DNA of 64,000 bases from Costus lasius. Lineage: Eukaryota > Streptophyta > Magnoliopsida > Zingiberales > Costaceae. Below the pieces are notes generated by a model. The model made no database searches, was not told the DNA's origin, and saw nothing but the letters and a program-made list of their open reading frames with translations. Positions 21,114 to 59,139 of the stretch are shown here, in pieces. The DNA lies in assembly GCA_027563935.2 (NCBI GenBank), contig CM050447.1, forward strand, positions 78,539,461 to 78,603,460, written 5' to 3'. Made by a program: the position numbers and the translations under genes. Each line of letters starts with the position of its first letter. Within the stretch, counting starts at the first letter, position 1.

Positions 21114-21844
21114 ACCAATCTCTCGATTTCTCTTTGAATTTGGAAAACTAATTGGGGCATCTTGTCTGCAGATCTTCCTCTCTTTATATAGATCATTCCA
21201 CTTTTTACAAATCTAAAAATAGTGGTCTAAAACTCGAGAAATCGTCTTCACAAGCTTTCGTGAACAGTAACAACGGAAGAATCGGGCAATCGTGGAAATC
21301 TGGGTTGAAATTACGGCATCGTGAAGAACATTACGGCAGTGCCATAATCGTTTCAGAAGTTTCTGTAAGGAAACGGCTCGAAATTATGGTATTGTAAAAT
21401 GTATTACGGCAGTGCCGTAATCTCCTAAAGAGTCTCTGTATGAAAACAACCCGACATTACGGCACCATAAAAAGTATTATGGTAGTGCCGTAACCTTTGC
21501 TTGGACAAAAAAAATCTTCGAAGAATAAGGTAGCAAAATTTGGTTTGCAGATTAGGGCCTTAATATTCCTTTACGACACTACCGTAATTTCTTTATGAAG
21601 TCTAATTCGGCTCGAAATTCGATGTGTAGTCACCTCTTTGATGATTAGAATTTGTCCATGCATTGAAATTGCTTGAAAACCATAAAAATGATGACTTTTT
21701 ACCTGAAATTGATCAAAAATTAAGAAAGGTGTAGATTCCGAAACATTTGATAAATAAGGCGTAAAAATAAGCAAATGAGCATGATTATGACCCAAAAGTA
21801 CAATAAAATTAGCAAGAAATATGCTATGAAATTTAGAGTCATCA

Positions 21845-22966
21845 AAATACATAAGGCTCAAACGTTGCTTATTCTCAAGCAAATAAAGAAATCAATACCA
21901 ATTATTGACAATAAACTCTCATATGACGAATAAATTTCTAAAATACAATTATTCATGGAAAATTTAATTGAAATTACATAAAATTTCAAACAAATATATT
22001 GTCCTCTGAACTTAATCCTTAAGATCCAAAACTCAATCAAATAAAACTTCGCAATGTGCATAATAAATAGAATCCCAATCTCATTATTTTACCTTTGTTT
22101 CAGTTTAAATCTATCATAGCTTTGTTTACAGGAATAGGATTTTCAAAATCTTTTTCCAATCAAATAGTCATTTTCTTTTCCTCTTTTTTTTTTTTTTTTA
22201 CAGACTTCAACCCATGTCTTCGGTACTGCCAATGTTACGCAGTGCCAAGTATGGGAGTCTCTCTCTCTTTTTGGATCTTGGATTCTTTCTTCCCAATAAA
22301 TAGTAAGATAAACTAAACATCAACTAGGTCAATCAATTGACATCAATTCAAAAATTACACTCATATGCTCATTTTATTTAAGGGAGTTATTTCACCTTCA
22401 GATTGCATTCATGAAACAATATATTTACCCAAAACCTCATGCACTGATCAATGGGAAAAATCCAACAAATAAATTATATCAAAGAAATAAATTCAGCATA
22501 TTAGGTCTATTTCCAATTCTCAGATATTGTTATGCATGGTAATTTATCATCAAGAAAAATTTTGGCATGATAATTGCAGTAATTTCAAGGATTCAACACA
22601 TCATGCAACAGCATAGACATTTGCAACAAACTAGGAAAGATATCTCATCACAGAACTCAAATTAAACAGTTCAAACTATCACACTATACCAATACATGGT
22701 GCTCAAAATCACAAAATATCATCCATGCAAAATATACCGAGTTATACAACCACATCGAAGCAGTAGTAATAGCAAATATCAAATTATCTCAATACAACCA
22801 AATCGAATGAATTTAGCAGTTTAACCACAAAAGTAGAGGATCATCATTGTGCGGACACAAGAAGTTTGACAAAGTCATCCTTGCCTACAAGGGCATGTAA
22901 ATCATCAAAAACCCAAATGATGTAGGTAATAGTAAAGATAAGGGAAGGATACTCACAAAGTTTTAC
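21845..22966 (-). other. Element B 3' UTR
   Basis: 1.1 kb of AT-rich non-coding DNA between ORF1 and the 3' LTR. It holds the conserved hairpin at 22203-22260 and a degenerate GCTTGAGAATAAGC stem about 25 bp before the LTR. The expected polypurine tract is not visible. Confidence 0.7.
22203..22260 (-). ncRNA. Conserved 3'-UTR hairpin, element B copy
   Basis: In RNA sense it has AGACTCCC, then GGCACTGC, a loop, GCAGTACC and GTTGAAGTC. The inner stem ACTGC/GCAGT and outer GACT/AGTC pair. It corresponds to the copies in C, D and J. Confidence 0.6.
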
Positions 22967-24298
22967 TCAATCCTTATCAAAGTCCGTCTCCTCCTCACCT
23001 CCCACAGCTGGGGCGGCATCCATGGGATCACCCTAAGAACCTCCTTCTTCACCTTCATCAGTTATACGCTTAAGATGAAGGTAATCTTTGATCTCCTCGA
23101 CATCCTCATTCATTTGCACCACATAATCAAATATCCTCCTCGCGAAAGTAGTCAAACGGTGTACATCAGCAGAAAGAGCCTGAAAGCCAGGGTCTCAATA
23201 ACTTTGCCATCCACTCTGATCAGGGGCAGCTCGGCATGAATAGGAACCTGTGGTTCTGTGCGGTGACGGGTCGGCAGCTCCAGGGGGCGAAGAATCAATA
23301 CTCATACCGAAAGGGTCGTCCCCCCAAGCGGGAGGTGGTGGTGGCACAGAATTCACAAGTGCAGGAGTGGCATAGGAAACGATACTCAGAGATAACTTCC
23401 AATTTTCTTGATTTTGAACGGTGGTTCTCCTAGGGTTAGGTAGAGGCAAGGTAGGAAGACCAGGCTATAGAATCAGACAATATGTGTCTACATCCCTGAA
23501 AATCATCTTCATAGCAATACAGGATTCAATGTCAACCTTGGCATTGCCTCTAGCAACTTCGATCCTATAGGGCTCAACCCCTAAGTGAAGTGCTATAGGA
23601 GTAAGGAACCCTCCTATCACTATAGTGCCTTTCTTCGCCCTAGCAACCTTGTCCAAATGTTTGACAAAAAAGAAAGCTACATCTATAAAATACCCATGAA
23701 GCATGCACCAAAGGAAAAATAGCTCAGAATGACGGAACATACTGTCTCCGTCCTCTCGTCCGAAGACGGTATGAGCTAGGACTCAGTGTACGTACTTGAT
23801 GCAAGGGTTGGACATGCTGGTTGCTCTTGCTAAAGATGGTGAAAATCTGGTTTTTAGAGTAATTTGATTCCAAAAAATATTCTCAATGAATCCAATCGGT
23901 GGCTCGGTACGCCCATCATCTGGAAAATAAAGATACATCTAATGTCTCTAAGTGTAAGCTTCCTTTCCTCATTGGCTATCCGGAATCTAATCTCTCCTTT
24001 GGCTTGGTGATCAGGGTACTCATCCTAATCCATCTCTAAGCTGCTGAGAACCTCTAGTACTAGAGGTAGATAAGTCTAAGGAGTCATGTTAAAGAACTTC
24101 TTCGTTGCAATTTGATCGAACATCCATAGAACATCCTCTTTGAGTCCCAAAGCGCCTGATAAGCTAATGATTATACCTCTGCTCTTGAATTTCATCTCTG
24201 AAGATTATTCCATATGGGTTTGATGGTGGAGCTGGGGCTGAAGATTCGGTTGGGGCTTTCCCTTTTCTCTTAGAAACAACTTTCTTCATTGGTGCCAT
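22967..24298 (-). pseudogene. Element B Athila ORF1-like gene (env position), broken
   Basis: It starts at the ATG at 24298 (MAPMKKVVSKRKGKAP), matching the D copy (MPPVKRMVSKRKGKAP), and runs to TGA at 22967-22969 after an acidic tail (ETDFDKD). Readable blocks are FRHSELFFLWCMLHGYFIDVAFF (about 23735) and PPPPPAWGDDPFGMSIDSSPP (about 23330). Stops and frame changes separate them. The family is the plant ATHILA ORF-1 type, here downstream of integrase where some Athila elements carry an env-like gene. Its function is unproven, and I see no clear transmembrane or fusion segment. Confidence 0.75.
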
Positions 24299-24744
24299 GA
24301 GAAATGGAAGTAAGATTTCAAAGCACTTAAAGAAAAACTAGAATGAAAAGTGTTACTGAACAGGGCGAGTAGGATTTCCAGTAGCCTTTGAACCAAGCTC
24401 TCAAATATGGACTTCTGAGCTGAAATTGAGCCTTCAAACACTTCAAGGGAAGATCTCCTACATCTTTCAAAACTCCTTGAAGCTGGAACCAGCTGGATCG
24501 AAGCTTTAATGAAGAAAAATGAAGAGGTGCGGAATCCAGCGGACGAATGACAGCTAAGCTCGATCAAGGTCGAAATCGTCAAAATGTCGGGTAGGAATCG
24601 GTCGGAAAGTGTTCGGAGATGGTAAAGAAGGGTTGTCGGAAGGTTTGGGAACACGAATGGAGGAAAACGACGCTCATTCGAAGAAGATCTCGAGGAGAAA
24701 CCCTAATTGCGGCTGAGAAAACTCTAAATACCGTAGCAGAAAAC

Positions 24745-25075
24745 GTGTGGGGCCGGAAAAATTACGGCCGTAATTTTCATTACGACACTGCCGTAATTCA
24801 AAATATGGTACGGTAAAAAGTGATACGGCACTACCGTAATCTACTCTAAAATTCCCAAAAGATTCTGTAAGAAAATGGCCCAAAATTATGGTATCGTGAA
24901 AACCATTACGATAGTACCGTAAAATCCTCAAAACTTTCTAGACAAAATCGAGCCAGAATTATGATATGTAAAATTCATTACGGTAGTACCGTATATCATA
25001 TAAAATCTTTCTGCAAAGAAATAGCTTAGAATTACGGTACCGTAATAAACATTACGATAGTACCATAATTTGTAA
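24745..25075 (-). repeat. Palindrome array in element B internal DNA
   Basis: Between ORF1 and the integrase tail lie about five repeats of 60-70 bp. Each holds a TACGGTACCGTA-like and an ATTACGGCAGTGCCGTAAT-like palindrome in variously decayed form. Similar arrays are in the LTRs and in the same internal place in D and J. Confidence 0.8.
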
Positions 25076-25222: not shown

Positions 25223-26302
25223 TTAGCTTGACCGTTCTACACTCGGATTTGCTCGTGGTTCATCAAGTAGAAATTTTTCTCCTTCTTCAACTTGTTCTTC
25301 ATGGAAATAATGCTTCAATCGCTGACCATTAACCTTAAACACCCCCGTTCTGTCGCTCCATATGTCAACAACTTCGTATGGATATGTTTTCTTAACTTGA
25401 AAAGGTCTAGACCATCGAGATTTAAGTTTATCGGGAAAAAGTCTCAACCTAGAATTAAACAAAAGAACAAATTCACCTGGTTGGAATTCCTTTCTAAGTA
25501 TATGTCAATCGTGCTATCTTTTAGTCCTCTCTTTATAGGTCCTTGCGTTTTCGTAAACGGAGAGTCTAATCTCATCAAGCTCGTTCAATTGTAACTTACG
25601 TTTTTCACCTGAGTTTTTCAAGTCAAAATTCAGTGTTTTGATCGCCCAGAATGCCTTGTGCTCGAGCTCTATAGGAAGATGAAAAGATTTACCATAAACT
25701 AATTGAAAAGGAGACATAGCTATCGGTGTTTTGAAAACAGTCTGGTATGCCCAAAGCGCATCATCAAGCTTAGGAGCCCAGTCTTTCCTTGTCCTTGACA
25801 CTGTTTTCTCTAATATCCCTTTGATCTCACTATTCGATATCTCAACTTGTCCACTTGTTTGGGGATGGTAAGGTGTTGAAACTCTATGATTCACCCCATA
25901 TTTTTGAAGCAAAGCTGAAAATTTGTGTTCAATAAAATGAGAACCTCCATCACTGATTACTAGTCGTGGTGTCCCAAATCGTGGAAATATAATCTTCTTG
26001 AACATCTTTACCACAACACTGGAATCATTAGTAGGTGAAGCAATGGCTTCCACCCACTTGGAAATATAATCTACTACCACAAGTATATATTTGTTACCTC
26101 TAGATGATGGAAACGGTCCCATAAAATCAATCCCCCAAGCATCAAATATTTCAACTTTAAGTATAGTGGACAATGGCATCTCATTCCTCTTGTTGATGTT
26201 CCCTGTCTTTTGACAACTATCACAAGACATTATAAAATTTCTAGCATCTTTAAAGATTAAGGGCCAATAAAATCCAGATTGTAATACTTTAAAAATAGTA
26301 TT
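25223..26302 (-). pseudogene. pol: Element B integrase, C-terminal two thirds
   Basis: From the second half of the HHCC zinc site ([21 protein letters not shown]) the core follows with DDE residues in [23 protein letters not shown] and [17 protein letters not shown]. The C-terminal part is [23 protein letters not shown], ending [14 protein letters not shown] stop or frame change lies at 25463-25514. The first His pair of the zinc site is at 37967-38010, across the D/E insertion, so this is the continuation of one pol gene. Confidence 0.9.
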
Positions 26303-26307
26303 CTCAG

Positions 26308-28219
26308 TGATGACTCTAAATTTCATAGTGTTTTTCATACTGATTAACTAACCTTTTGAGTCATAATCTTGCTCTTTTGCATTATTTTTATGCCTTATTT
26401 GCCAAATACTTCGGAATCTACACTTTCTTTGGTCCTTGATCAATATCATGTAAAAAGGCATCATTATCGCGCATTTTCAAGCAATTTCGATGCACGAATG
26501 AGTTCTAATCATCAAGAGGAGTTTGCACATCAAATTTCAACCCAAACCAAGCTTTCCAAAGAAATTACGGTAGTGCCGTAATTATTTTTACGGCCGTAAT
26601 CTGAAATCAGGGTACTACCGTAATGGATTTCATGGCAGCAGATTACAGCGAGTTTTTTAGGAAATTACGGCACTGCCGTAATTAATATTACAGTGCCGTA
26701 AATTCGGTCAGAATCGGGTAGAAACTTCAGAGGATTTCGGACAAATTATGGCACTGCCGTAATATTTTTCACGGTGCCGTAATTTCGGACAAATTTCATT
26801 CATAAACTTTTAGAGACAACCGAGAGAAATATATCACTACCGTAATTTTGGGCTAAACTTTTATGGTACCATAATTCCGAGCCAATTCTTTACAGAACAT
26901 TCAGAAGCAATCACGGCAGTACCGTAATTAAATTCACAGTACCATAATTCTGCACCCAAATTCCTGATTTTTCCGCTGAAAGATTAAAAAGATGATTTAT
27001 TGAGATTTAGGGCACCAATTAAAGATCCGTAAAAAGGGGAAGACTGAGCATGAGGAGGGGGAGATATTCAAAGAAAAAGGGACAATTTTCATCAACACTT
27101 AGGGGAGAATTTGAGAGAATCGCCGCCGCGCTACGGTTCATCGCACAGGCCATCTCCGGCCACGAAATTTGCAAGGAAGCTTCACCTGAGGAAGGAGAAC
27201 ATGCCACAGAAGTTTCACAGTGAAAGGAGGCTGATCAAGGGAGAAATCAACGAAAACGTGGTCGCATACACTGTTCATTGCGACTCTACACAAATTACGG
27301 GCTATAATTTTGACTACAGCTCTGTTTTGTAACTTTTACTCCTCTCTTTCGATTTCTAATCTTTCTAAAACCATGTTTAGCTGTATTTCTTCTATCATGC
27401 TAGCTTAAATCTTTTTTTTTTGGGACTTGGGGGTGTAGTCCCCTTGATATTATAATGACTATATGACTTTTCTCCATCAGTATATTTTTGTTATGGTAAT
27501 TTTACTTAAGAGATTTATGTCTTTAATCCTTTCTAGTTTCATGAATTAACATGTGTTAGAGTTTGTGTTATGGACTAAGAAGATGATAACGCTAAACTTG
27601 GAACCCTAGAATTTATGATAGGAATGCATCGTAAGAGATTAGTTATGTTCTTATCTTTAGATTTTAAGAGCTTAATTCTTGTTGATGTTTTGACCTAGGA
27701 ATTATTATTGTCTTATACATGAAAATATGCTAGAGATAGATATTGGACTGTTTGAAAACCTTAAGTAAAACCTGTGAAACTATGGTACGAGGGTGCTTAG
27801 TTTTGCTTGAGATCTTGATATTGAGATGGAATGCACGAGAGTGATTCTTAATCTATTTGATCAAAGTTTACTTTTATTAAACATTGAATTGGTCTTGCAC
27901 GAGAGTGAGGATCATTCTTTGTAAATTGACTGCGTGAGAGCGAGTTAATTTCTCTATTAAGTAAACTATATCTTTGCCATAACGAAAAAATAGATTGATG
28001 AACCTTTAATCGTGTCTAGTCATAAATATTAAGGTGGATGAACCCCTAGTCCCAAGTATTTCTCTCTGATCTTCCGTACACAGTTCGATCGTTTATTCGC
28101 GTCATATTCGATTTCTTTAGCTAGTGAGAATTCAATTTGTCGGTACTTAACAACAAGGTCTTTGTGGTTCGATATCTTAAATATTACTTCGAGTATCCGT
28201 GCACTTGCGGACTACAACA
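26308..28219 (+). repeat. Element D first LTR
   Basis: 1912 bp, TGATGACTC...CGGACTACAACA. It contains a palindrome array at 26560-26950, the LTR hairpin near 27298-27325 (GGGCTATAAT/ACTACAGCTC, decayed) and CACGAGAGTGA repeats at 27835-27955. By eye it differs from the second LTR by about 5% over the first 200 bp. Confidence 0.93.
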
Positions 28220-28225
28220 AGTTTT

Positions 28226-28242
28226 TGGCGCTGTTGCCGAGG
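28226..28242 (+). other. Element D primer binding site (tRNA-Asp)
   Basis: TGGCGCTGTTGCCGAGG, 15 of 17 bases matching the tRNA-Asp complement. Both changes are transitions. Confidence 0.85.
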
Positions 28243-28344
28243 ACCTTAGTTTTGTTAATATCTAAATAGTTGTTAGTATTGCTAGACTAAGTTTTATTTG
28301 TTTTAGATTTAACTTTATTTTCTATTTTTTTGCAGGTTTTGGAC

Positions 28345-28689: not shown

Positions 28690-29130
28690 ACAAATTATGG
28701 TACTACCGTAATTTTTATTACGGTATCGTAATTCATGTTGCTTCTTTACAGAAAGATTACGTGGATTACGGCACTACCGTGTTAAATTTTACAGGCCATA
28801 ATTTCTGTCTGTTTTCGTATATAAAGTTTTTTGGATTTTTGAGTATTTTATGGCAGTGCCATGGGGATTTTCATGGTATTGTATTTTCGGACGATTTTGA
28901 CCAAAAAGTTTTTGAGTTTTTGTGAATTTTACGGCAATGCCATAATGAATTTCACGGTACCGTCAAAGTGAAGCATTTTCTTACAGAAACTTTTGGAATT
29001 TTCAGACGAAATACGGCACTACCGTATTTGTCTTCACGGTACCATAATTTGACGTTTTTCTCAGCCGAGAGCCTGTCACGATTTTATGGCACTGTCGTAA
29101 TTTCTTTACGGTATCATAATCCACCCGACC
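28690..29130 (+). repeat. Palindrome array in element D internal DNA
   Basis: About six units of 60-75 bp with paired motifs such as TACTACCGTAATTTTTATTACGGTA and ACGGCACTACCGT. It lies between the integrase tail and ORF1, the same place as in B. Confidence 0.82.
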
Positions 29131-29567
29131 CCATGTGATACAAGTATCGTATTTAGGGTTCGGCGCCATGCTTTTTAGGTTTCTTCACCCGATTTCGCGT
29201 CGACCTCTGGATTTCTTCGAGTTCTTGCCTCCTAAACCCTCTTGCGACCATTCCTAACTAGTTTCTAACGATTTCTACCTGAGATTTAGAGAGATTTTAA
29301 GTTCAAATCGGGTTTCACGCACTATTCTTTAGCATTTTTTGCCCCTTTCATTTCCGCTCATCCAAGCATTGATTGAGCTGCAGCCAACTTCCAGGAGGTT
29401 TGAAGAAGGAAGAAGATCGGTCCTTGAAATGATTGAAAGCTCGATTTCAACCCAGAAGTCCATATTTAAAGCTTGAATCCAGCTCTATTTTCAGCTTTGT
29501 TCATCTTTCAGTAACACTTCTATTTCCAGTTTTCTTCAGTAGTTCTTTCCTTCTCTTGCACACTATC

Positions 29568-31055
29568 ATGCCACCGGTCAAGAGGATGGTTTCAAAGAGA
29601 AAGGGGAAAGCCCCATCTAAAACTCCAGTGCCTCCACCAAACCCTTTCGGGATCGTTTTCAGAGATGAGGCTCAAGAACAGAAATACAATTTGCTACTTA
29701 CCCGACGTGTTGTGAAGACAAAATAGATAGATACACGAGCATTGGAGCTTTTAGGATTGAAGGATGATGTGTTGTGGATGTTTGACAGGGTGGCTATGAG
29801 GCATTTTTTTGACATGACGCCTCAGACCTATCTACCTATTGTGTTGGAGTTCCTTAGCAGTTTGGAGGTAGATTGGAATGAATATGTAGATGATTCAGCT
29901 GAAGGAGAAATCAGGTTTAGGATGGCTAATGAAGATAGGAAGCTCTCATTCAAAGAGATTCGACACATATTCCACCTTCTGGAGAGAGGACGCACAGAGC
30001 CACCTATTGGATTTATTGAGAATATTTTTTGGAATCAAATCACGGCAGAGACTCAATTTTCACCCTCATCAGTGAGAGCGTCAAGCATCTCAAACCCATG
30101 TGTCAGATATGCCCACCACGTCCTTGCACACACCATATTCAGGCGAGGAGATAGCGACGGTATGGTCCGTCATGCTGAATTATTTTTTCTTTGGGGCATG
30201 CTTCATGGTTATACGATAGATGTAGCTTTCTTCTTCATGAAGCATCTGGATAAAGTGGCTAGAGCCAAGAGAGGCACGATAGTGATAGGAGGTTTTCTCA
30301 CTCCTATAACATTATTTTTAGGGATTGAGCCCTATGGGGTCGAGGTCGCTAGGGGCAATACAAGGATCGACATCGAATCTTACGTTGCCATGAAGATGAT
30401 TGTACGAGATGGCGACACATATTGCTTGATCTTGCAACCTGGGCTTCCCACATTGCCATTACCTAACCCTGGATGGACCTCAGTACAAAATCTTGAGAAT
30501 TGGAAGTTGTCACCAAGTTGTGTATCTTACGCCACACCTGCACTAGAGGCATCAGTACCACCACCACCTCCTGCTTGGGGTGATGACCCGTTTGGTATGG
30601 GCATCGATTCCTCACCACCTAGAGCCACTGATCCACCATCGTAAGGAGCCACCGGATCATCTACACATCACGCAGCTCCAGACCAGAGTGGGTGGCATTC
30701 TTATTAGGACCTTGGATTCCAGGCTATCTCTGAGCAGATGTACCAATAGGAGCAGCGCATGGGAAAGATGATGGGTGCCATGGGGAAGATGACCGATCAG
30801 ATAAGTCACATCCACCTGGATGTCGAAGCGTTAGGGAACTACATGGAAGATATGGGCAATTTTCTCTACTATCGTTTTGGTTTCAAAGATTCTAGGAGGG
30901 GTGGTATCTATGGCGATGCAGGTGAGGGAGGTTCTCATGATCCCATGGACGCCGCTCAGGCTGAGGGAGACAATGAGGAGACGCATTCAGATGAGAAGGA
31001 CTTTGTGAGTATCTTTCTTTTATTCTCATTGCTTTATTTATGCTCTACTGATTGA
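29568..31055 (+). pseudogene. Element D Athila ORF1-like gene, best-preserved copy
   Basis: It starts at the ATG at 29568 (MPPVKRMVSKRKGKAP). One frame runs through a TAG at 29724-29726, the main body at 29742-30641, a TAA at 30642, further stops near 30705 and 30750, and a C-terminal part to 31055. The body has LELLGLKDDVLWMFDRVAMRHFF and LPIVLEFLSSLEVDWNEY, then KLSFKEIRHIFHLLERG, the N-terminal pattern of ATHILA ORF-1 proteins. Next come CVRYAHHVLAHTIFRRGDSDG, a proline-rich PPPPPAWGDDPFG hinge and a coiled-coil-like end (MGKMTDQISHIHLDVEALG). A Lys/Arg-rich N-terminus may be a nuclear signal. No membrane segment is evident, so an envelope role is doubtful. All frames agree, so the breaks are point changes only. 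Confidence 0.82.
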
Positions 31056-31746: not shown

Positions 31747-31756
31747 TGAAAAGGAT

Positions 31757-32342: not shown

Positions 32343-34262
32343 TGATGACTCTAAATTTCATAGTATTTTTCATACTGATTAACTAACCTTTTGAGTCATA
32401 ATCTTGCTCTTTTACTTTATTTTTATGCATTATTTGCCAAATACTTCGGAATCTACAACTTCTTTGGTCCTTGATCAATTTCAGGTAAAAAGGCATCATT
32501 ATCGCACGTTTTCAAGCAATTTCGATGCACAAACGAGTTTTAATCATCAAGAGGAGTTTGCACATCAAATTTTAACCCAAACCAATCTTTCCAAAGAAAT
32601 TACGGTAGTGCCATAATTATTTTTATGACCGTAATCTGAAATCAGGGTACTACCATAATGGATTTCATGGCAGCGGATTGTAGCGAGTTTTTTGGGAAAT
32701 TATGGCACTACCGTAATTAATATTACGGTGCCGTAAATTCGGTCAGAATCGGACAGAAACTTCAGAGGATTTCGGATAAATTACGGCACTACCGTAATAT
32801 TTTTCATGGTGCCGTAATTCCAGACAAATTTCATACAGAAACTTTCAGAGACAACCGAAGGAAATGCAGCACCACCATAATTTTGGGCTAAACTTTTATG
32901 GTGCCGTAATTCAGAGCCAATTCTTTACAGAACATTCAGAAGCAATCACGGCAGTACCGTAATTAAATTCACGGTACTGTAATTCTGCACCCAGATTCTC
33001 GATTTTTCTACCGAAAGATTAAAAAGATGATTTCTCGAGATTTAGGGCACCAATTGAAGATCTGTAAAAAGGGGAAGACTGAGCATGAGGAGGGGGAGAT
33101 ATTCAAAGCAAAAGGAACAATTTTCATCAACACTTAGGGGAGAATTTGAGAGAATCGCCGCCGCGCTAGGGTTCATCGCCGTTCATCGCACAGACCATCT
33201 CCGGCCCTAAAATTTGTAAGGAAGCTTCGCCTGAGGAAGAAGAACACACCACATAAGTTTCAGAGTGAAGGGAGGCTGATCAGGGGAGAAATCAATGAAA
33301 ACGTGGTGGCATACACTGTTCATCGCGACTCTACACAAATTACGGGCTGTAATTTTGACTACAGCCCTGTTTTGTAACTTTTACCCATCTCTTTCGATTT
33401 CTAATAATTCTAAAACTATGTTTAGCTGTATTTCTTCCATCATGCTAGCTTAAATCTTTTTTTTAAGACTTGGGGGTGTAGTACCCTTGATATTATAATG
33501 ACTAGATGACTTTTCTCCATCAATATATTTTTGTTATGGTAATTTTACTTGAGAGATTTATGTCTTTAATCCTTTCTAGTTTCATGCATTAACATGTGTT
33601 AGAGTTTGTGTTATGGACAGAGAAGATGATAACGCAAAACATGGAACCCTAGAATTTATGATAGGAATGCATCGTAAGAGATTAGTTGTGTTCTTATCTT
33701 TAGATTTTAAGAGCTTAATTCTTGTTGATGTTTTGACCTTGGAATTATTATTGTCTTAGACATGAAAATATGCTAGAGATAGATATTGGACTGTTTGAGA
33801 ACCTTAAGTAAAACCTGTGAAACTAAGGTACGAGAGTGCTTAGTTTTGCTTGAGATATTGATATTGAGATGGAATGCATGAGAGTGATTCTTAATCTCTT
33901 TGATCAAAGTTTACTTTTATTAAACATTGAATTGGTCTTGCACGAGAGTGAGGATCATTCTTTGTAAATTGACTGCGCGATAGCGAGTTAATTTCTCTAT
34001 TAAGTAAACTATATTTTTACCATAACGAAAAAATAGATTGATGAACCTTTAATCGTGTCTAATCATAAATATTAAGGTGGATGAACCCTTAGTCCCAAGT
34101 ATTTCTCTCTGATCTTCCGTACATAGTTCGATCGTTTATTCGCGTCATATTCGATTTGTTTAGCTAGTGAGAATTCAATTTGTCAGTACTTAACAACAAG
34201 GTCTCTGTGGTTTGATATCTTAAATATTACTTCGAGTATCCATACAGTTGCGGACTACAACA
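32343..34262 (+). repeat. Element D second LTR
   Basis: 1920 bp, TGATGACTC...CGGACTACAACA, matching the first LTR throughout. It is followed not by a target duplication but by AGTTTTTG, the first bases of the internal leader. It therefore behaves like the 5' LTR of a further, mostly lost copy. Confidence 0.92.
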
Positions 34263-36245: not shown

Positions 36246-37961
36246 TGTTGTAGTCCACAAGTGCATGGATACTTCGAAGTATTAAAAGATATCAAACCAC
36301 AAAGACCTACATGTTAAGTACCAAATACTTGTCTTCTCACTAGCTAAGCAAATCAAATATGATGAAAGCACAAACGGAAAGTAAACTAAATATCTGAGAG
36401 AGAAACTGGGACTAGGGTTTCATCCACCTTAATTTCCATGTCTAGATATAAATATGCATTCGTCAATCTAATCTTATTATGATAAAGATATAATTTACTT
36501 CATAAATGGATCATCTCGCTCTCGCACAAACAATCATACAAAGAACCAATCCTCACTCTCGTGCAAGATTTATTCAATGCTGAAGATAAGTAAACCATTA
36601 ACAAAGAACTCAAGGATCACTCTCGTGCATCAGAATTCTAAGTCAATCATCTCAAGTGGGAACTCAAGGATCACTCTCGTGCATCCGAATCTCAACACAG
36701 GTTCTACTTATGGTTCTCCTACGATCCAATACTCAATCTCTTGTAGTATCTTCATGTTTATCATAGTAACTCAATCCTAGATTTGGATTATCAACATGGC
36801 AATTATTCTTCTAAAATCAAGAAATAAGAACTAACCTAATTTCTTACGGTGAGTTCCTAATATTTAATTTTAGGGCTCCAAGTTCTCAAGCAAATTACCT
36901 CTCGGACCATATCGCGAGAACTCTAAAACATGCTAACAATATGAATCTTCAGAGAATTAAAGGCGTTCATCACATAAGTAATATTATCATAGTAAATTTA
37001 TCATGACGAAATAAGGATTATCTAGCCATATAAAATTAGGGGATTACACCCCATGTCCCAAAAAGTGTCTAAGCTAGCATGGTAGAGGAATTACAATAAA
37101 TCATAGTTTAGAATGATTAGAAATAAAAAAAAAGGGGTAGAAGATACAAAACAGGGCTGTAATGAAAATTATAGCCCGTAATTTTGTGAGTGAACAGTGC
37201 CGACGCTCGCTCTTTCGTTGATTTCTCCTCCGATTGATCTCCTTTCGCTCTGAAACTTCTGAAGTATTCTCTCCTCCTCCAGGCGAAGCTTCCTTGTGAT
37301 AATCGCGGCCTGAGGTGGCCTCTACGCCTCTTAGCGGAGGCCAAACCCTAAGGACGCCTCCCTCAATTTCTCTCTGGATAGTGGATAAAAATTGGGGCTT
37401 TCGGTTCCTTTTTCTTCTCCTCTTTGAGATGACTCTGTGGCTTCTTTCGAATCTCAATTTGGTGCCCTAAATCTCAAGATATCATCTTTTTAAGTTTTGG
37501 GCAGAAAAATCAGGAAACTGGGCCGAAAATTACGATACCATGAAAAAAATTACGGTAATGCCGTAATTTTCCTTAGAAGTTTCTAATCAAAAAGGCTCAA
37601 AATTATGGTACCATAATATTTATTACGGCACTGCCATAATTTCTTTCTATGCTTTCTGGGGCGGAAATTATGATACGATAATTTTCATCAGGGCACTATT
37701 GTAATTTTGTAAACTTGCTCCGATATGCATGAAAATTGACAGGCGGCTTCGTCTTGACGTTTGGAATCCATTGGTGTGTTTAAATCTTTCAAAATCCATC
37801 AAAATATGGCACTTTTTACCTAAAAATCATCAAAAATAAGAAAAAGTAGAGATTCTACAATATTTGACAAATAAGGCTTAAAAACAAGCAAAAGAGCATA
37901 AATATGACACAAGAAAACCAATGAAATGACACAAAATATACTATGAATTTTGGTGTCATCA
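36246..37961 (-). repeat. Element E 5' LTR
   Basis: 1716 bp; minus strand TGATGACACCAAAATTC...CGGACTACAACA. Its outer end abuts the CTCAG duplication. It has a hairpin near 37148-37170 (GGGCTGTAAT/ATTATAGCCC), palindromes at 37520-37710 and four CTCTCGTGCA-type motifs at 36508-36680. The sense frame 37457-37101 encodes RGVEATSGRDYHKEASPGGG, a segment shared with LTRs F and F2. Confidence 0.92.
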
Positions 37962-37966
37962 CTCAG

Positions 37967-42427: not shown

Positions 42428-45400
42428 TGTTGTGTCCGCAAGTGTACGGATACTCGAAGTAATAAAAAGTTATTGAACCACAGAGACCTCGTTGTTAAGT
42501 ACCAAAGAATTGATTTCTCACAAGCTAAGCAAACTGAATATGATGTAAGCAAACGATAAGAAAGTTTACTAAATATTAGAGGGAAAGAATTGGGACTAGG
42601 GGTTCAACCATCTTAATTTTAATGACCAGATATAATTAAACACTCATCAGTTTATTCTTGTTATGATATAGATGTAATTTGCTTTAATAAGAAATCGTCT
42701 TGCTCTCGCACAGATGATTTGCATAAAATAATTCTCACTCTCGCGCAGATTTATTCTATGTTTATGGAAAAGCAAACCTTGACATAGAGATTTAAGAATC
42801 ACTCTCGTGCATTCGATCCTGATATCAAAATCTCAAGTGAAACTAAGTATTCTCATACCCTAGTTCCACTAGTTTTACTTAAGGGTTTCTAACAATCCAA
42901 TATCTATCTCTAGCATATTTTCATGTCTAAAACAGTAATATTTTCTAGATCAGTCTATCAACAAGTCAATAGACTTCTAAAATCTAGAGATAAGAACACA
43001 ACTAATTTCTTACGATGAGTTCCTAAACCTCAATTTTAGGGTTCCAAGTTTTGCAAATTACTTTTCAGTCCATATCACAAAACTCTAACACATGCTAATG
43101 ATTGAAACAAGAAAAGATTAAAGACGTAAATCACTTAAGTAAAATTATCATATCAAAAACATCCTGATGAAATAAAGGTCATCCTGTCATTAAGAAATTA
43201 AGAAGTCTATACCCCCTTGTCCCAAAGAGGTTTAAGCTAGCATGATTGAAGAATTACAATAAAACATTATTTAGAAGGATCAGAAACTGAAAGAGTAGAC
43301 ATAAGGTTACTAAACAGGGCTGTAAGAAAAATTACAGCCCGTAGTTTAGCCTGGAAATGCAATGAACAGTGGTAGTGCCCATGTTTTCGCTGATTTCTCC
43401 CTCGATCGGTCTCCTTTCACTCTGAAACTTTTCATGTGTCCTCTCCTCCTTCAAGTGAAGCTTCCTCTTAAATTTCTAATGACATGAAAATTAATATTAT
43501 ATTTTGTGTCATTTCATTGGTCTTTTTGTGTCATATTTATGCTCTTTTGCTTATTTTTAAGCCTTATTTGTCAAATATTGCGGAATCTACACCATTTCTT
43601 ATTTTTCATCATTTTTAGGTAAAAAGTGCCATATTTGTAGGGATTTTGGAAGATTTGAGCACACCAATGGATTCCAGGCGTCGAGAGGAAGCTACCCGTC
43701 AATTTTCATGCAAATCAGAGCAAGTTTGAAAATTACACCCCGGGTGTAATTTTTATTATGACCTGTAATTTTCTGCCCAGATTACACCCCGGGTGTAATA
43801 TTGATTATGGCCCGTAATTTCTGCCCCAAAATGCACAAAAGCAAATTACGGCAGTCCCGTAATAAAAATTACACTACCGTAATTTCTGCCTAGAAATTCA
43901 TAGAACAAAATACGGCACTACCGTAATATTTTTTATGAGCCATAATTTCTTGGAAATTATCCACATAACACATTATGGCACTGTCGTAATCAAAATTATG
44001 GCCGTAATTCTGAATTTGAACGAGTCTTCCGCCGCCGCTCCAAAGCCCGATTTTTGTGATGCAATATCAGAAGATCCAAGGCACCAATTCAAAAACCGTA
44101 AAAAAGGGAGTGATCTATATATAGAGGAGAATATTTGAGGACAAGAATAATCGAATTACATCAAGAATCAAGAGAGAAATCAAAAAGGGCGTCCCTAAGG
44201 CATGGCCTCTTGCCGAGAGGCGTAGAGGCCACCTCAGGTCACAAAATTTACAAGAAAGCTTCGCCAGGAGGAGGAGAAGATACCCCAAAAGTTTCAGAGC
44301 GAAAGGAGAATGATTGGAGGAGAAATCAATGAAATTGCAGGTGTCTGCACTGTTCACACGCGAAATTACGGGCTGTAATTTTTATTACAGCCTAGTGTTT
44401 AGTAAAATTCCTCTTTCTCTTCGATTTCTGATCATTCTAGACTATGGATTATTGTAATCCTTCTACCATGCTAGCTTAAATATCTTTTGGGACATGGGGG
44501 TATAATCCCCTTAATTTCTTAATGACTAGATAATTTTATTTCGTCAGGATAATTTTACTATGATAATTCTACTTATGCGATGATTGCTTTTAATTATCCA
44601 TTGATTCATATTATCAGCATGATTTAGAGTTTTTGTGATATAGACTGAAAAGTGATTTGCGAAAACTTGGAACCCTAAAATTAGGATTTAGGAACTCATC
44701 GTAAGAAATTAGGTTTGTTCTTATTTCTAGATTTTAGAAGCTTATTGCCATGTTGATAATCTGATCTAAGGATTGAGTTATTGAAACAACCATGAAGATG
44801 CTGTAACAAATTAAGTATCGGATCGTTGGAGAACCTTAAGTAGAACCTGTGAAACTATAGTATGAGAATATGTAGTTTTCACTTGAGATGATTGACTCAG
44901 AATTCGGATGCATGAAAGTGATCCTTGAGTTATTTGTCAATGATTTACTTAAATTTAACATTGAATAGATCCTGTGTGAAAGTGAGTATTGGTTCTTTGT
45001 AAATTATCTATGCGAAAGCGAGATGATTTCTTTATTAAGTAAATTATTTCTTTATCATAATAAAATTAGACTGACGACCTCTTATTTATATCTAGTTATT
45101 GAAATTAAGGTGGATGAAACCCTAGTCCCAGTTTTCCTCTCTGATTATCTGCACGCTATCTGATCATTTGCTTACATCATATTAGATTTGCTTAGCTAGT
45201 GAGAAAACAACTATTCGGTATTTAACACATAGGTCTCTGTGGCTCGATATCTTTTATTACTTCGAAGTATTCGTGCACTTGCAGACACAACAATTTCACG
45301 GTCGATAGTGGTCTGTACGCTTCCCAGCGACGAACCCTAGGGCGGTGACCAATCTCTCGATTTCTCTTTGAATCAGGAAAACTAATTGGGGCCTCTTGTT

Positions 45401-46074
45401 TGCAGATCTTCCCCTCTTTATGTAGATCATTCCCCTTTTTATGGATCTGGAAATAGTTGCCTAAAACTCGAAAAATCGTCTTTGCAAGCTTTCATGAATA
45501 GTAACAGTGGAAGAATCGGGCAATCACAAAAGTCTAAGTTGAAATTACGGCACCATGAAGAACATTACGGCAGTGACGTAATCGTTTCAGAAGTTTCTGT
45601 AAGGAAATGACTCAAAATTATGGTATTGTAAAATGCATTACGACAGTGCCGTAATCACCTCAAAAGTCTCTGTATGAAAACAGCCCGACATTACGGCACC
45701 ATAAAAAGTATTACGGTAGTGCTGTAACCTTTGCTTGGACAAAAAAAATCTTCTAAGAATACGGCAGCAGAATTTGGTTTGCAGATTACGAGCGTAATAT
45801 TCCTTACGGCACTACCGTAATTTCTCTGTGAAGTCCAATTTGGCTTGAAGTTCGATGTGTAGTCACCTCTTGATGATTAGAATTTGTCCATGCATTGAAA
45901 TTGCTTGAAAACCATGAAAATGATGCCTTTTTACCTAAAATTGATCAAAAACCAAGAAAGGTGTAGATTCCGAAACATTTGATAAATAAGGCATAAAAAT
46001 AAGCAAATGAGCATGATTATGACCCAAAAGTACAATGGAATTAGCAAGAAATATGCTATGAAATTTAGAGTCAT
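42428..46074 (-). repeat. Element B 5' LTR, interrupted by solo LTR F
   Basis: LTR sequence covers 42428-43476 and 45298-46074, about 1826 bp without F and one TSD copy. A palindrome array is at 45540-45830 and the GGGCTGTAA/TTACAGCCC hairpin at about 43317-43340. Confidence 0.92.
43477..45292 (+). mobile_element. Solo LTR F in element B 5' LTR
   Basis: 1816 bp, flanked by perfect ATTTC repeats (43472-43476 and 45293-45297). The start reads TAATGACATG where TGATGACAC is usual, a mutated terminus; the end is GCAGACACAACA. The uninterrupted site is visible in the 3' LTR at about 12856. It is related to E and F2. It carries two ATTACACCCCGGGTGTAAT palindromes (43732, 43781) plus ACGG/CCGT ones to 44015. 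No internal region remains, so LTR-LTR recombination removed the body. Confidence 0.95.
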
Positions 46075-48330: not shown

Positions 48331-48399
48331 GAAGGAACTTCAGTTAAGTTTAGTTCAGAACATACAAAAATGTCAGAAGTACCTTTATTTTTGAACCAA

Positions 48400-50150: not shown

Positions 50151-51178
50151 TGATGACACCAAAATATATAGTAAATTTTGTGCCATTTGATAGACTTTTT
50201 GTGTCATATTTATGCTATTTTACTTGTTTTTAAGCCTTATTTGTCGAATATTGCAGAATCTACACCATTTCTTATTTTTGATGATTTTTAAGAAAAAAGA
50301 GCCATATTTTGATAGATTTTGAAAGATTTGAGCACACCAATGAATTCCAGACGTCGAGACAAAGCTAGCCGTCAAATTTCACAAAAAATAGAGCTTCAGA
50401 CCAAAATACGGTAGGGCCGTAATCTAATTTATGGTACCGTATTTTCACTACACCTACAGAACAAAACACGGCACTGCCGTAATTTCTGAGCACTGCCATA
50501 TTTTGGGATGATTTTGAATAGAAAGTTTAGCAAGAATTACGGCACCACCGTAACCAATTTTACGGGCCGTAATTCCAGTCCAGAAATCTACAGAAGAAAA
50601 TACGGCACTGCCGTAATGGATTTCACGGTACCATAATTCTGGATGATTTTTGTACCAAGAACTTCTACTGAGATTACGGCACTACCGTAAATGTTTTCAC
50701 AGCCATAATTGCAACCTGGATGCGCGATTCTTCTGGACTTTTTGAAGCCCGAATCTTGTGCAGACGATTTCGGACGATCCAGACCACCAATTTGAGATCC
50801 GAAAGAATCTATAAACTCGTCTCAATGAAGAGAGTAAAAGGGGAGTGAAAGCCCTAATTTTAATCCATTGTCCAGAGAGAAATCAAGAGTGGCATCCTTA
50901 GGGCACGGCCTCATGCCGAAAGGCGTAGAAGCCACCTCAGGATGCGATTTTCACAAGAAAGCTTCGCCTGGAGGAGGAGAGGATACCCCAGAAGTTTCAG
51001 AGCGAAAGGAGGTCGATCGCAGGAGAAATCAACGAAAGAAGAGGCGCCCGCACAGTTCACGACCAAAATTAAGGCTGTAATTTTCATTACAGCCGTGCTA
51101 TTAGTTGTTTTTCTCCTTTTTCTTCAATTTCTGATCCTTTGAAATCATGATTTATTGTAATCCTTCTACCATGCTAGC
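50151..51178 (+). repeat. LTR F2 (Athila-type), 5' part, cut by element H
   Basis: It starts TGATGACACCAAAATATATAG after ATAGA. It contains palindromes at 50400-50720, the hairpin GGCTGTAAT/ATTACAGCC near 51072-51092, and the sense frame 50868-51080 (RGVEATSG-like segment). It breaks off in ATGCTAGC at 51178, where F continues for another 800 bp. Confidence 0.88.
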
Positions 51179-53800: not shown

Positions 53801-55714
53801 TGATAGGCTTCCGCAAGTGCACGGAATTATCTAAGTAATAAAAATATCGATCCACAGTGACCTTATTGTTAATTACCAAATAATTGTTTTCTCACTAGCT
53901 AAGCAAGCCAAATATGATGAAAGTAAACTATGCAGAGAATATGCTAAGGAGATAAACAGAGAGATAAACATGGGACTAGGGTTTCATCCACCTTAATTTC
54001 AATGATAAGATATAAATAAAGGTTCGTCAATCAAATCTTGCTACGATAAAGACCTAATTTACTTCATAAAGGGATTATCTCACTTTCATGCAGACAATCA
54101 AGGAGGGATCAGTCCTCGCATTCACGCAAGATCTGTCCCAATGCTAAAGATAAGTAAATCATCAATCAAAGAACTCAAGATCACTTTCGTGCATCCGAAT
54201 TCTAGGTTGATAATCTCTAGTGGAATCTCAAGGATCACTTTCATGCATCCGAGCCTCAACACTAGTTTTACTCATGGATCTCCAACGTTCCGATCCTCAC
54301 TTTCGTGCAAGATCTCCATGTTTGATAAATAGACTCAATCCATAGATTCATATTACTATCATGGCAATTAATCTACTAGAACAAATCAAATTAGATCTAA
54401 CCTAAGGAAGAGATCCTAACATGCAATTCTAGGTTTCCAAGATCTCAAGCAAATCACCTTTTAGTCTCATTGCGAAAACTCTAAAAACATAATTACTAAC
54501 ATGGACTTATACAGAGTCTAAGCACAATCCATCACAAAAGTAAAATTATCATAGCAAAAATTATCATGACGAAAATAGAAGAGTTATCTAATCATTAAGA
54601 ATCAAGGGGATTACACCCCATGTCCCAAAAGAGTGTTAAGCTTGCATGAAGGAGGAGATACAATAAATCATAGTTTTAGAGTGATCAGAAAACAAAAGGA
54701 AAGGAGAAACAACGTTACAACACGGCTGTAAAATCCTTTATAGCCGTAATTTGCTTCGATGAACAGCGCTGTCACCGCAGTTTCGTTGATTGCTCCTCCG
54801 ATCGGAGTCCAAACACTCTGAAACTTATGTGGCATCTTTCTCTCCTCTAGACGAAGCTTCTGACTGAAAATCACGGCCTGAGGTGCCCTCTACGCCTCTC
54901 GGCATGAGGCCAAACCCTAGCCGCCTCTCTGGCAATTTCTCCCTTGATACTAAATAAAAGTTTTTTTTCCACTTCGAGCGTTTTCTCCTCCTAAAGACGA
55001 ATCCTCCACAATTTTCGGATTTCCATTTGGAGCTCTGGATCAAAAGTTATGGCCCGCGCAAGATTTGGACTCGTAAAAATCACGTTTTTGACTGGGAATT
55101 ACGGCAGTGTAATATGTTACGGCACTGCCGTAAAATAGCTTGAGTGTTCTATTCTGGAGACGCTGGGAAATACGGTACAGTATAATTCTTTATGGCAGTG
55201 CCGTAATTTCAGTCGAGTTCTCTGGTCTGAAGTCTTCACAAAATACGGCACCGTAAACTTCTTCACGGTGGTGCCGTAAAATCGGTTGAACACTCTGGTC
55301 TGAAACGCTGGAAAATACGGCCTGTGTAATTCTTTACGGCGGTGCCGTAAAATCACAAAAACTTTCTGTTCAGAAAATCACCAAAATACGGCCGTGTTCT
55401 TAATAATACGGTAGACGTGAAAATACGGTACCGTAAAATAGTTTACGCACTGCCATATTTTGGTTCTTAGCTTCGATTTTCGTGAAATTTATTGTGTGAC
55501 TTCTTCTTGATGATGGGAACTTTTCCACGTATTTGATTTTGCTTAAAAACGCCCAAAATAGTGCCTTTTTGCCTGAAAATCATGAAAAACCAAAATAGAA
55601 GTAGACTTTGCAATATTTGATGGATTCAGCATAAAAACAAGTAAAAGATCCTCAATTTAGCATGAAAAGGTATTTAAAATGATATAAAATATACTACATA
55701 TTTTGGTGTCATCA
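53801..55714 (-). repeat. LTR I (Athila-type)
   Basis: 1914 bp; minus strand TGATGACACCAAAATATG...GCGGAAGCCTATCA. Palindromes lie at 55090-55460, the hairpin CGGCTGTAAA/TTTATAGCCG near 54723-54745, and five CACTTTCGTGCA-type motifs at 54080-54310. The U5 end (AAGCCTATCA) resembles C more than J, so LTR I is not a plain sister of the next LTR. Confidence 0.88.
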
Positions 55715-55818
55715 AACACATAAGGCTCAAACTTTGCTTGTTGATAGCCCGAAAGGGAACACAACAAATCTGGCACGCGTGTACCTTGGACTAATCCTTG
55801 GTAACGGCACCAAAAACT
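55715..55818 (-). other. 104-bp residual internal segment between LTRs I and J
   Basis: It joins the pre-3'-LTR sequence (AACACATAAGGCTCAAACTT) to a decayed tRNA-Asp primer site near 55796-55812 (TTGGTAACGGCACCA). The whole coding body between them is deleted. Confidence 0.8.
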
Positions 55819-57650
55819 TGTTGTTAAACCGCAAGTGCACGGGTATATGAAGTAATAAAAAAGTATCGAATCCACAGGGACCTACGTTGTCGAATACTAA
55901 ATAGTTGATTTCTTACTACCTAGGCAAAACGAGATCGTGAGAATAGCAATCGGTAACTAAAAGCGGGATTATCAGAGAGAAAAGCTGGGACTAGGGTTTC
56001 GTTCACTTAAACTTTTATGACTAGACATGAATAAGGATTTCGTTGATTTAATTACATCATGAAGAAGATATTATCAAAGGATGAACTCAAGGATCACTTT
56101 CGTGCATCCGAGCTCTACAATCTCTAGTAGAGTCTCAAGGATCACTTTCGTGCATCCGAGTCTCACAACTAGTTTTGCTCAAGGACCTCCAACGTTCCGA
56201 TCTTTGCTTTCGCACAAGATCTCCACGTTTGACAAATAGACTCGATCTATAGACTCATGTTATAATCATGACAATTATTTTACTAGAAAGGATCAAGATG
56301 GATCTAACCTAAGGAAGGGATCCTAACATGCAATTCTAGGGTTCCAAATTCTCAAGCAATTACCTTTCAGTCTCAAGCGAAAATTCTAAGAACATAATTA
56401 ATAATATGAACTTAAAGAGAGTCTAAGCACAATTATCACATGAGCAAAATCATCATGCTGAAATCAAACTCAACGAAATATTGAAAAAGAAGTTATCTAA
56501 TCATTAAAAGTCAAGTGAACTACTCCCCCATGTCCCAAGAGTAGTTTAAGCTAGCAGGGCGAAGGAAATACAATATTCCATAATTTTAGAAAATCAAAAA
56601 TCAACAAAAAGAAGAGTTTTTAGAAAATACGGCACGGCTGTGAAGTATTTCACAACCGTATTTTACAAAGGAAGGCGTGAACAGTGATGGCGATCCTTCT
56701 TCCTCTGATTTCTCCTCCAATTTGTCTCCTTTCAATCTGAAACTTCTGGCACGTTGTCTCCCTTCATCAAGCAATGCTTCGGTAGAAAAATCACGGCCGG
56801 AGGTTGTCTGGATCGAGCGCGGCGGCGAAACCCTCGGCGATGGCGTGGATCAAGATTTCTCCCTCAACGGTGTATGAAATTTAGCGCTTTTGGTCTCTCT
56901 CTAATCCTCCCGTCCAAAGCTCTCCTTTTGCTTCTTACGGCATCGAATATAAACTTCTGGATCATCCGCAATCATCTCCACAAGGATCGGGCAAGGACAT
57001 TGACCTGGGAATCGTGTTCAAACACCGGAATACGGCAGTGTAATATCTTACGACACTGCTGTAAAATCCATCGATTATTCTGTTCTGAAATTGCTGGAAC
57101 AATACGCAGCGTAATTTGGTTTACGGCAGTGCTGTAATTTCAGGGCAACTTTCTATTCTGAAGACGTCTGGAAAATACGGCCCATAAACTGGTTTACGGC
57201 AGTGCCGTAATTTCAGCGAAGGTCTCTGTTCCGAAAGCGCCCCAAAATACGGTCGTGTAAATTCTTACGGTGGTGCCGTAATTTCGCGAAAGCTTTCTGT
57301 TCAGTAAATGACCAAAATACGGCCGTGATCTCGATAATACAGTAGCCGTGTAAAATATGGTACCGTAAAATCCTTTACGGCACTACCGTACTTTGGGTTC
57401 TTTGCCTCGATTTGCGTGAAAATTCTTGGGTGACTTCTTCTTGAAGATGAGAACTCTTCCATGTATTTGATTTTTGCTTGAAAATGCCTAAAATAGTGCC
57501 TTTTTGCCTGAAAAACATGAAAAACCAAAATAGAAGTAGACTTTGCAATATTTAATGGATTCAGCATAAAAACAAGTAAAAAGATCCTCAATTTAGCATG
57601 AAAAGGTATCTAAAATGATACAAAATATACTACATATTTTGGTGTCATCA
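55819..57650 (-). repeat. Element J 3' LTR
   Basis: 1832 bp; minus strand TGATGACACCAAAATATG...GCGGTTTAACAACA. Palindromes lie at 57020-57410 and the hairpin CGGCTGTGAA/TTCACAACCG at about 56632-56655. It serves both as J's 3' LTR and as the 5' LTR of the deleted copy to its left. Confidence 0.9.
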
Positions 57651-58059
57651 AACACATAAGGCTCAAACCTTGCTTGTCCTCAAGCAAAAATCAAAATTTG
57701 AAATCAAAATTTGATTAAAAGAATAACCTTTTCATGCTCAATAAATTTCTAAAATACAACTTGTCAATGAAAAATTCTATCAATTGATTTACAAAATTTC
57801 AAGTAAATATATCATCCTCAGAACTCAATTTTCAAGATTCACAACTCAATCAAATAAAACTTTGCAACTTGTACAATAGATAGAATTTTCAATCTCATTA
57901 TTTCACCGAGTATCAATTTAAATCTATCATGCTTTTGTTTACAGGAATTAGGTCTCCAAGATCTTTTTCCACACATAATTTTTTTTTCTTTTTTTTTTCT
58001 TTTTTCATTGTCTTTGCATAGACGACATGTATCCACATAGACACATACTTTTTATTTTT

Positions 58060-58119
58060 GACTTCAACTCTTTTTTCGGTACCACTGTCAATTTTACACA
58101 GTGCCAAGTAGAGGAGTCT
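58060..58119 (-). ncRNA. Conserved 3'-UTR hairpin, element J copy 1
   Basis: AGACTCC, GGCACTGT, loop, ACAGTGGTACC, GTTGAAGTC. Inner stem CACTGT/ACAGTG, six pairs. Confidence 0.65.
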
Positions 58120-58153
58120 TATTCTTTTCACCACTCATTATTTTTCATGCATA

Positions 58154-58214
58154 GACTTCAACCCATGTCTTAGGTACCTCTATCAATTTTACATAGTGCA
58201 AAGTAGGGGAGTCT
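58154..58214 (-). ncRNA. Conserved 3'-UTR hairpin, element J copy 2
   Basis: AGACTCCCC, CACTAT, loop, ATAGAGGTACC, GTTGAAGTCT. The inner stem is CTAT/ATAG where copy 1 has CTGT/ACAG, a paired G-C to A-T change. Outer stem AGACT/AGTCT, five pairs. Confidence 0.65.
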
Positions 58215-59139
58215 CTCATTATTTTTTTATGGATCTCGGATTCTTATTTCCCAACAAATAGCAAAAATAGACTAAACCTCAACTAGGTTGATCAATTGAT
58301 CTAAATTCACAAATCATACTAATATACTCATTTTATTCAAAATAGAAGTTTCACTTTTAAATTTCATTCTTCAAATAATATATCTCCCCAAAATTTTATG
58401 CATCAATCAATGTCATATCTCAATAGACAAATATGTATTGAAGAAATAAATTTGACATGATGGAGTTATGTTTTCAATCATGAATTTGAGATCATCAATC
58501 ATTCAAGTCATCAACAGTATAAATTAAGAGTGAACTCATCATCACCATCAATTATCACAATATCATATCAACAAAAATATATCATCATGTATATCATATC
58601 AAACATCAGAATATCAAAATATCATACAACCCCATCGAATCAGTAAAGGTCAATATCATCATCATCATACAACCATATCGAAATAAGAATAATAGGCATG
58701 TTAAACAGAATGCAGTGGCGGCAGTCATGGAAGCACCATCCTTCCCTTTGTCATATAAAACAACAGTGAGATAAAGAAAATCATAGCACAGCAAAAAGGT
58801 AAGGGAAGATAATACTCACAAAGCCTCTACTCATCATCGTCAGATCGCGTAGCCTCCGAGTCTCTCGCTGCAGTCTACTCAGGATCAAAGTATGGGGTTC
58901 CTCCCTGATCACCATGATAGCCATAGTCTCGTAATTTCGTCACAGCTTTCTGGTCGGAAGTAGACTGAAATACGGTACCGTAAAATCTTTTACGGTATTG
59001 CCGTATTTTGCTCCAAATCACGAAAAACCTACAAATAATAAAATAAAAATTAGTCCTAAGCAAAAATCAAGGTAAATAAAACTAAAATAAGGGTTAGAAA
59101 GCTTGGGTTGCCTCCCAAGAAGCGCTAATTTAAAGGTCA

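Follow-up and report, generated by a model that had tools for sequence, protein, structure and literature searches.

A window of 64,000 nucleotides from Costus lasius (contig CM050447.1, positions 78,539,461 to 78,603,460 of the forward strand) was analyzed, and the whole analysis rests on this one window. It is a nest of plant long terminal repeat (LTR) retrotransposons, designated here by letters, whose LTRs carry tandem arrays of CGG-CCG palindromes in the unique 3' (U3) region. In two elements, B and D, a further array separates the integrase tail from the gene for ATHILA ORF-1 (open reading frame 1). Anatomy gives good support for reading these as arrays of DNA-level binding sites, probably for a dimeric protein, at two promoters. 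An initial annotation had listed eleven arrays, and all of them were present where claimed. The window was scanned with ATTACGG-N(g)-CCGTAAT, allowing up to three mismatches in 14 positions; the twelve arrays counted below are these eleven and 58940-59010. Positions in the first eleven lines come from this motif scan.

21310..21588, minus strand, U3 array of the B 3' LTR, four long palindromes
45544..45821, minus strand, U3 array of the B 5' LTR, four long palindromes
24761..25069, minus strand, internal array of B, integrase tail to ATHILA ORF-1
26564..26948, plus strand, U3 array of the D 5' LTR
32599..32983, plus strand, U3 array of the D 3' LTR
28694..29120, plus strand, internal array of D, integrase tail to ATHILA ORF-1
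37529..37705, minus strand, U3 array of LTR E
50405..50709, plus strand, U3 array of LTR F2
55098..55459, minus strand, U3 array of LTR J1
57029..57392, minus strand, U3 array of LTR J2
58969..59007, minus strand, single internal unit of J
43732..44008, plus strand, U3 array of LTR F, including two units of altered yet symmetric form, ATTACACCCCGGGTGTAAT
13947..14149, minus strand, U3 array of the C left LTR, its long palindromes having an inner gap of 6
18900..19096, minus strand, U3 array of the C right LTR, split by an insert (remainder at 20838-20857)
15741..15778, minus strand, single internal unit of C, TTCACGG-N6-CCGTGAA, read by eye

Near-perfect palindromes (arms of 8, at most one mismatch, inner gap of up to 5, at least two G or C per arm) numbered 47 in the eleven named arrays, and a few of these were without the motif type. 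Dinucleotide-shuffled arrays yielded a mean of 6.0 (SD 1.9, maximum 12 in 60 rounds), so that the symmetry clearly exceeds its control, as had been proposed. The window-wide scan placed matches with an inner gap of 5 almost exclusively in the twelve arrays (47 inside, 1 outside), and the same was seen for a gap of 2 (28 inside, 1 outside). A gap of 0 formed a smaller peak (11 and 5). Matches with a gap of 1 were found six times inside and 12 times outside, where several lay in C and in the R/U5 (repeat and unique 5') part of the LTR. A gap of 6 gave 5 and 4, a gap of 9 gave 5 and 5, and every remaining gap gave two or fewer matches inside arrays.

The initial annotation had assigned one or two palindromes to each unit. 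Instead, a unit consists of one long palindrome of 19 bp (gap 5) and one short palindrome, mostly of 14-16 bp, usually exactly 4 bp apart. A short partner with at most four mismatches lies downstream of 49 of the 55 long matches, and the joint between them measures 4 bp in 40 cases, 2 bp in five (all in J), 3 bp and 5 bp in one each and 13 bp in two. An upstream partner was found for only seven of the 55, at scattered distances. Because this search picked the best of many offsets, it was repeated at a fixed offset with one LTR per pair: ATTACGG with at least five of seven bases occurs at +4 in 25 of 43 units, against a background of 3.1%. The 43-unit set was obtained from the 55 long matches by removing 25031 and 43800, which are overlapping short palindromes (leaving 53), and then the units of the B 5' LTR and the D 3' LTR. 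The order from long to short follows the direction of the element in all twelve arrays, LTR and internal alike. The half-site consensus is about TNCCGTAAT, and half-sites of the standard unit start at 0, 12, 23 and 32 bp, which corresponds to 0, 1.14, 2.19 and 3.05 helical turns. The distance between units varies among elements: the B LTRs have mostly 34 bp and E has 34 and 26, most J units stand 33-35 bp apart, most F units 25-26 and most D units 34-44, and F2 ranges over 21-52. The palindromes that had been noted in C are present, and they too form long/short units, with an inner gap of 6 rather than 5. Here, in four of five long matches examined (one of the four weak, with 6 mismatches), the best-matching short palindrome begins 23 bp after the long start, an offset that corresponds to the 19 + 4 of the other elements.

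The arrays occupy a fixed place in the LTR: in nine of nine LTRs measured (both copies of B and D, E, F, F2, J1 and J2), the distance between LTR start and first palindrome is 254-258 bp. With one LTR taken per pair, a TATA box follows the last palindrome by 60-150 bp in four of eight LTRs (B 3' LTR, C, F and F2), a number reached by none of 1000 shuffles (mean 0.18). No TATA box was found at this distance in D, E, J1, J2 or the B 5' LTR; J1 has TATTTAG at +142 and J2 TATATT at +78. Both internal arrays are followed at +31 (B) and +30 (D) by TATTTAG together with a TAGGGTT(T) box, a word picked after it had been seen. The single internal unit of J lacks such a box after it. Arrays stand upstream of the env-position gene in B and D, and J and C have one internal unit each without ORF-1. 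In seven of seven LTRs measured, again with one LTR per pair, the array exceeds the remainder of the LTR in observed/expected CpG ratio, although the motif itself contains CpG.

21183..21190, minus strand, TATA box of the B 3' LTR, 120 bp past the last palindrome
44116..44123, plus strand, TATA box of LTR F, 108 bp past the last palindrome
50810..50815, plus strand, TATA box of LTR F2, 101 bp past the last palindrome
13837..13842, minus strand, TATA box of the C left LTR (right copy at 18790-18795)
24724..24730, minus strand, TATTTAG 31 bp past the B internal array, followed by TAGGGTTT
29150..29156, plus strand, TATTTAG 30 bp past the D internal array, overlapping TAGGGTT

The array-bearing elements are assigned on sequence grounds to Athila-type Ty3/gypsy retrotransposons because of their gene order, the type of their primer-binding site and the PF03078 (ATHILA ORF-1) matches behind the internal arrays. 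B, on the minus strand and split by nested elements, has the order protease, reverse transcriptase, RNase H and integrase. In Ty1/copia elements integrase precedes reverse transcriptase. That order, expected of a Sirevirus, was not found, so these are gypsy elements with arrays merely resembling those of Sirevirus. The PF03078 match in D (E 7.1e-19, 68.4 bits) lies downstream of pol, and no ATHILA ORF-1 beyond those of D and B was found in the window, where elements are partial. The primer-binding sites belong to the TTTTTGGCGCCGTTGCC type, which we take to be that of Athila (read by eye in C). LTR-adjoining sites of the TGGCGCCGTTGCC type lie at 427-443 and 28222-28238, with a TTACC variant at 55800-55816; a match at 32895 with four mismatches was dismissed as chance.

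39704..40609, minus strand, protease region attributed to B, with Pfam matches that fall below the curated cut-off
38696..39682, minus strand, reverse transcriptase assigned to B
37959..38528, minus strand, RNase H and a weak start of the integrase zinc finger, assigned to B
25514..26338, minus strand, integrase of B (rve, H2C2)
23198..24337, minus strand, ATHILA ORF-1 of B, fragmented
29433..30644, plus strand, ATHILA ORF-1 (PF03078) of D, two open stretches with one in-frame stop between them
28222..28238, plus strand, primer-binding site of D (TTTTTGGCGCTGTTGCC)
43477..45292, plus strand, F, a solo LTR in the B 5' LTR, with target duplication ATTTC at 43472-43476 and 45293-45297 (by eye)

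The LTRs of B are split by nested insertions, solo LTR F among them. D (26308-34262) has no room for gag-pol, as similarity to the integrase tail starts about 140 bp past the LTR, and it retains the integrase tail, the array and ATHILA ORF-1; inspection of its ends by eye gave no matching target duplication. C has LTRs about 95% alike, an Athila-type primer-binding site and a short internal part (14405-17875) with a 379-aa ORF that gave only a sub-threshold Pfam match, and no ORF-1 was found behind its internal unit. Ty1/copia-type gag and pre-integrase ORFs occupy 47654-49196 on the minus strand, and an AT-dinucleotide microsatellite of about 41 bp lies at 8659-8699. That the carriers are diverged, as the initial annotation had it, holds true, although all belong to one clade. 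Self-comparison matches between families are mostly about 60-80% identical, so the arrays are not confined to one recently amplified family.

A related single unit, GGGCTGTAAT-N4-ATTACAGCCC, occurs in R/U5 of nine of nine aligned LTR copies (B, D, E, F, F2 and J).

27299-27322 (D 5' LTR), 33344-33367, 44370-44393 and 51072-51095, plus strand, R/U5 hairpin
12706-12729, 43317-43340, 37154-37177, 54723-54746 and 56635-56658, minus strand, R/U5 hairpin

This unit covaries with compensatory changes (0.236 versus 0.103, reached by none of 500 shuffles, with 92% of cells paired; pieces cut by eye). It is probably an RNA hairpin, possibly serving as an RNA signal in the 5' leader.

Spacer identity between families (0.498) is near the shuffled background (0.472), and the half-site value of 0.711 is biased upward, as the units had been selected by matching half-sites. 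Between the two LTRs of an element the units diverge about as much as the rest (0.081 versus 0.061 in D, 0.084 versus 0.092 in B) and are thus not cold spots. The suggestion that half-sites change in concert applies clearly only to F, where both arms changed symmetrically in the two ATTACACCCCGGGTGTAAT units; the other pairs show little covariation.

Predicted models of ORF-1 align best to the crystal structure of VANC21 with DNA, at a moderate match, and fold matches ranked lower, among them PH, PX, NAP and PI3K helices, were regarded as chance. When PDB sequences were searched with a profile, no sequence similarity connecting ORF-1 with VANC or with another DNA-binding protein emerged; the three matches at E≤10 were two ClpB coiled coils and one protein of unknown function. 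Among 27 ORF-1 homologs, PF03078 was matched by all 27 and PF20167 by 15, and 13 other Pfam families were matched weakly by one or two homologs each, including the Plant mobile domain (one member, E 0.2). DUF1985 and DUF287 were absent from these 15 families (E≤10, with Pfam filters dropping most matches above E 0.1). These two are the sequence domains named for VANC in PMC5735166. A profile search of a protein database, in which the best-sharing 7994 candidates were scored, returned 52 proteins, 49 of them with PF03078. The other three were a strong relative without Pfam mark, a PF07727 protein and one unmarked weak match. Three protein queries found no relatives in viral contigs, and one pattern had no match there. 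One contig (L001, 1-3330), filed under a Candidatus Nomurabacteria metagenome-assembled genome, encodes a plant-like Athila integrase with 62% identity and is likely plant contamination. It has no motif palindrome at up to two mismatches (four stray ones at 3-4) and no match to the ORF-1 profile or PF03078, a different 203-aa ORF lying behind its integrase. This single distant relative without array and ORF-1 match limits the verdict.

Dimeric-protein sites, RNA hairpins and a methylation-sensitive switch had all been offered as roles. The first is favored for the arrays by the mostly fixed 4-bp joint, the constant polarity, the near-helical spacing of half-sites and the fixed place in U3; a switch of the third kind is possible. 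A second reading, quite improbable, is that the palindromes form hairpins in transcripts or give rise to siRNA, and so supply or escape RNA-directed DNA methylation, as has been reported for palindromes in maize Sirevirus LTRs. The latter are hotspots of small-RNA mapping (PMC5311732), the R/U5 unit does covary, and the covariation score of the arrays, computed on 39 of the 40 distinct sequences of the 43-unit set (one F sequence was left out), was reached by 11 of 500 shuffles and is marginal. In the outer seven pairs G.U exceeds A.C (20 versus 13), which is not significant (P 0.30). Over all nine pairs, however, A.C is as frequent as G.U (29 and 26) and the inner 8-12 pair is uncorrelated (24 Watson-Crick versus 23.1 expected), and for these reasons hairpins are not favored. 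Furthermore, double changes occur in six pairs, three of them due to F, and neither the fixed joint nor the fixed distance from the LTR start is predicted by RNA folding. At most, a hairpin role of the U3 arrays finds weak backing.

Binding by a host factor is a stronger competitor, though we consider it unlikely: enhancers for a dimeric plant factor such as NAC would confer stress activation on the U3 and internal promoters, with ORF-1 unrelated. Anatomy and promoter context fit this too, a PLACE search with Sirevirus motifs yielded mainly stress-factor sites (PMC2829016), and the half-site TGCCGT is that of JUB1/ANAC042 in TGCCGT(7n)ACG (PMC4106437). NAC palindromes have been searched as CGT-N7/8-ACG (PMC4081100), but here the long palindrome contains ACG-N7-CGT and the joint is spanned by CGT-N10-ACG. 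Spacing and polarity thus both disagree, and a NAC site was rejected. Shared ancestry of the arrays is itself likely, since every carrier looks like an Athila element. It is improbable, in contrast, that an ancestral array was inherited and re-duplicated by slippage so that the palindromes are relics devoid of function. A single clade contains all carriers, certain internal units closely resemble LTR units (0.77 between B internal 24905 and B 5' LTR 45637) and Retand, a Ty3/gypsy lineage, commonly has tandem arrays (PMC11963269). Yet spacer identity is close to background, whereas the short half-site, unused in selecting units, holds its 4-bp place, and several positions changed symmetrically in F.

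Our preferred explanation, held tentatively, is that the arrays are cis-regulatory clusters of sites for a dimeric protein at two Athila promoters, the binder most likely being a VANC-like ORF-1. A sequence-specific, probably dimeric protein would bind the array sites, and the arrays would control both the LTR promoter in U3 and a further promoter, inside the element, for the ATHILA ORF-1 gene. As the four half-sites lie about one helical turn apart, two dimers could occupy roughly one face of the helix in each unit. ORF-1 as the binder is a bold reading suggested by one fold match and by genomic position. In this role it may recognize the arrays of its own element in a VANC-like manner, shield the promoters from silencing and boost its own expression through the array before its gene. 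The fuller proposal, somewhat more doubtful, is that this env-position gene encodes a VANC-like anti-silencing DNA-binding protein with the U3 arrays and the array before its own gene as targets, for which the arrays of Sirevirus, together with their env-position genes, may offer a parallel. The initial annotation had brought in neither the Sirevirus precedent nor a tie between arrays and ORF-1.

The arrays bear on the means by which retrotransposons evade silencing in plants and on the role of the extra genes that lie between pol and the 3' LTR. A sunflower study of 2026 reported an Athila cluster with a drop in LTR methylation in all three contexts, cited VANC as a model and left methylation-modulating extra ORFs in Athila, like the one in its Tekay, for future work (PMC12844716). 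The arrays would supply this anti-silencing idea with a defined DNA target, and ORF-1 would supply it with a defined protein. Among the open-licence PMC papers listed, titles and abstract starts showed nothing on palindromic arrays in Athila or on a VANC-like ORF-1. If true, a motif array with its own binder would be a general anti-silencing strategy of plant DNA transposons and both LTR superfamilies.

In foamy viruses, the Tas protein acts on both the LTR and an internal promoter; the two-promoter logic is the same, but proteins and hosts are unrelated and this is an analogy only. In VANDAL elements an element-encoded protein, VANC, is likewise paired with short motifs in non-coding tandem repeats whose type varies by family (Hosaka et al. 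2017, PMC5735166), although these are DNA transposons with the motif YAGTATTAY rather than a CGG-CCG palindrome. Gene 23 of Grande and TRP28 of Retand are accessory genes of Ty3/gypsy elements that also lie between pol and the 3' LTR (PMC7264820, PMC11963269). By the title of a cited paper, the Grande gene has its own promoter; TRP28 is predicted to possibly bind DNA, and about half of Retand elements have tandem repeats. These genes are antisense and encode other domains, and their repeats are family-specific, with no palindromic units described in the excerpts of either paper.

A close likeness is to the repeated motifs (RM) of Sirevirus, a Ty1/copia lineage (Bousios et al. 2010, PMC2829016). 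These are tandem CGG-CCG palindromes in the upper half of the LTR that start 200-400 bp in, precede the TATA box and have further copies just upstream of the env-like gene. Both placements were found here, with CGG-CCG palindromes in U3 upstream of TATA (four of eight LTRs) and extra copies upstream of the env-position gene in B and D. This window shows the same cores, CGGCAGTGCCG and CGGTASTACCG, which form part of the Sorghum RM and the Inga RM, respectively. The motifs were called Sirevirus-specific relative to the classic Ty1/copia elements compared. The present elements differ in being Ty3/gypsy Athila with a PF03078 ORF and another primer-binding site, and the long-4 bp-short composite of fixed polarity is not described in the excerpt of PMC2829016. 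Sharing of one motif architecture between two superfamilies would be a sign of strong selection or of exchange. The present arrays are of the Sirevirus RM kind, in another superfamily and with a stricter composite unit.

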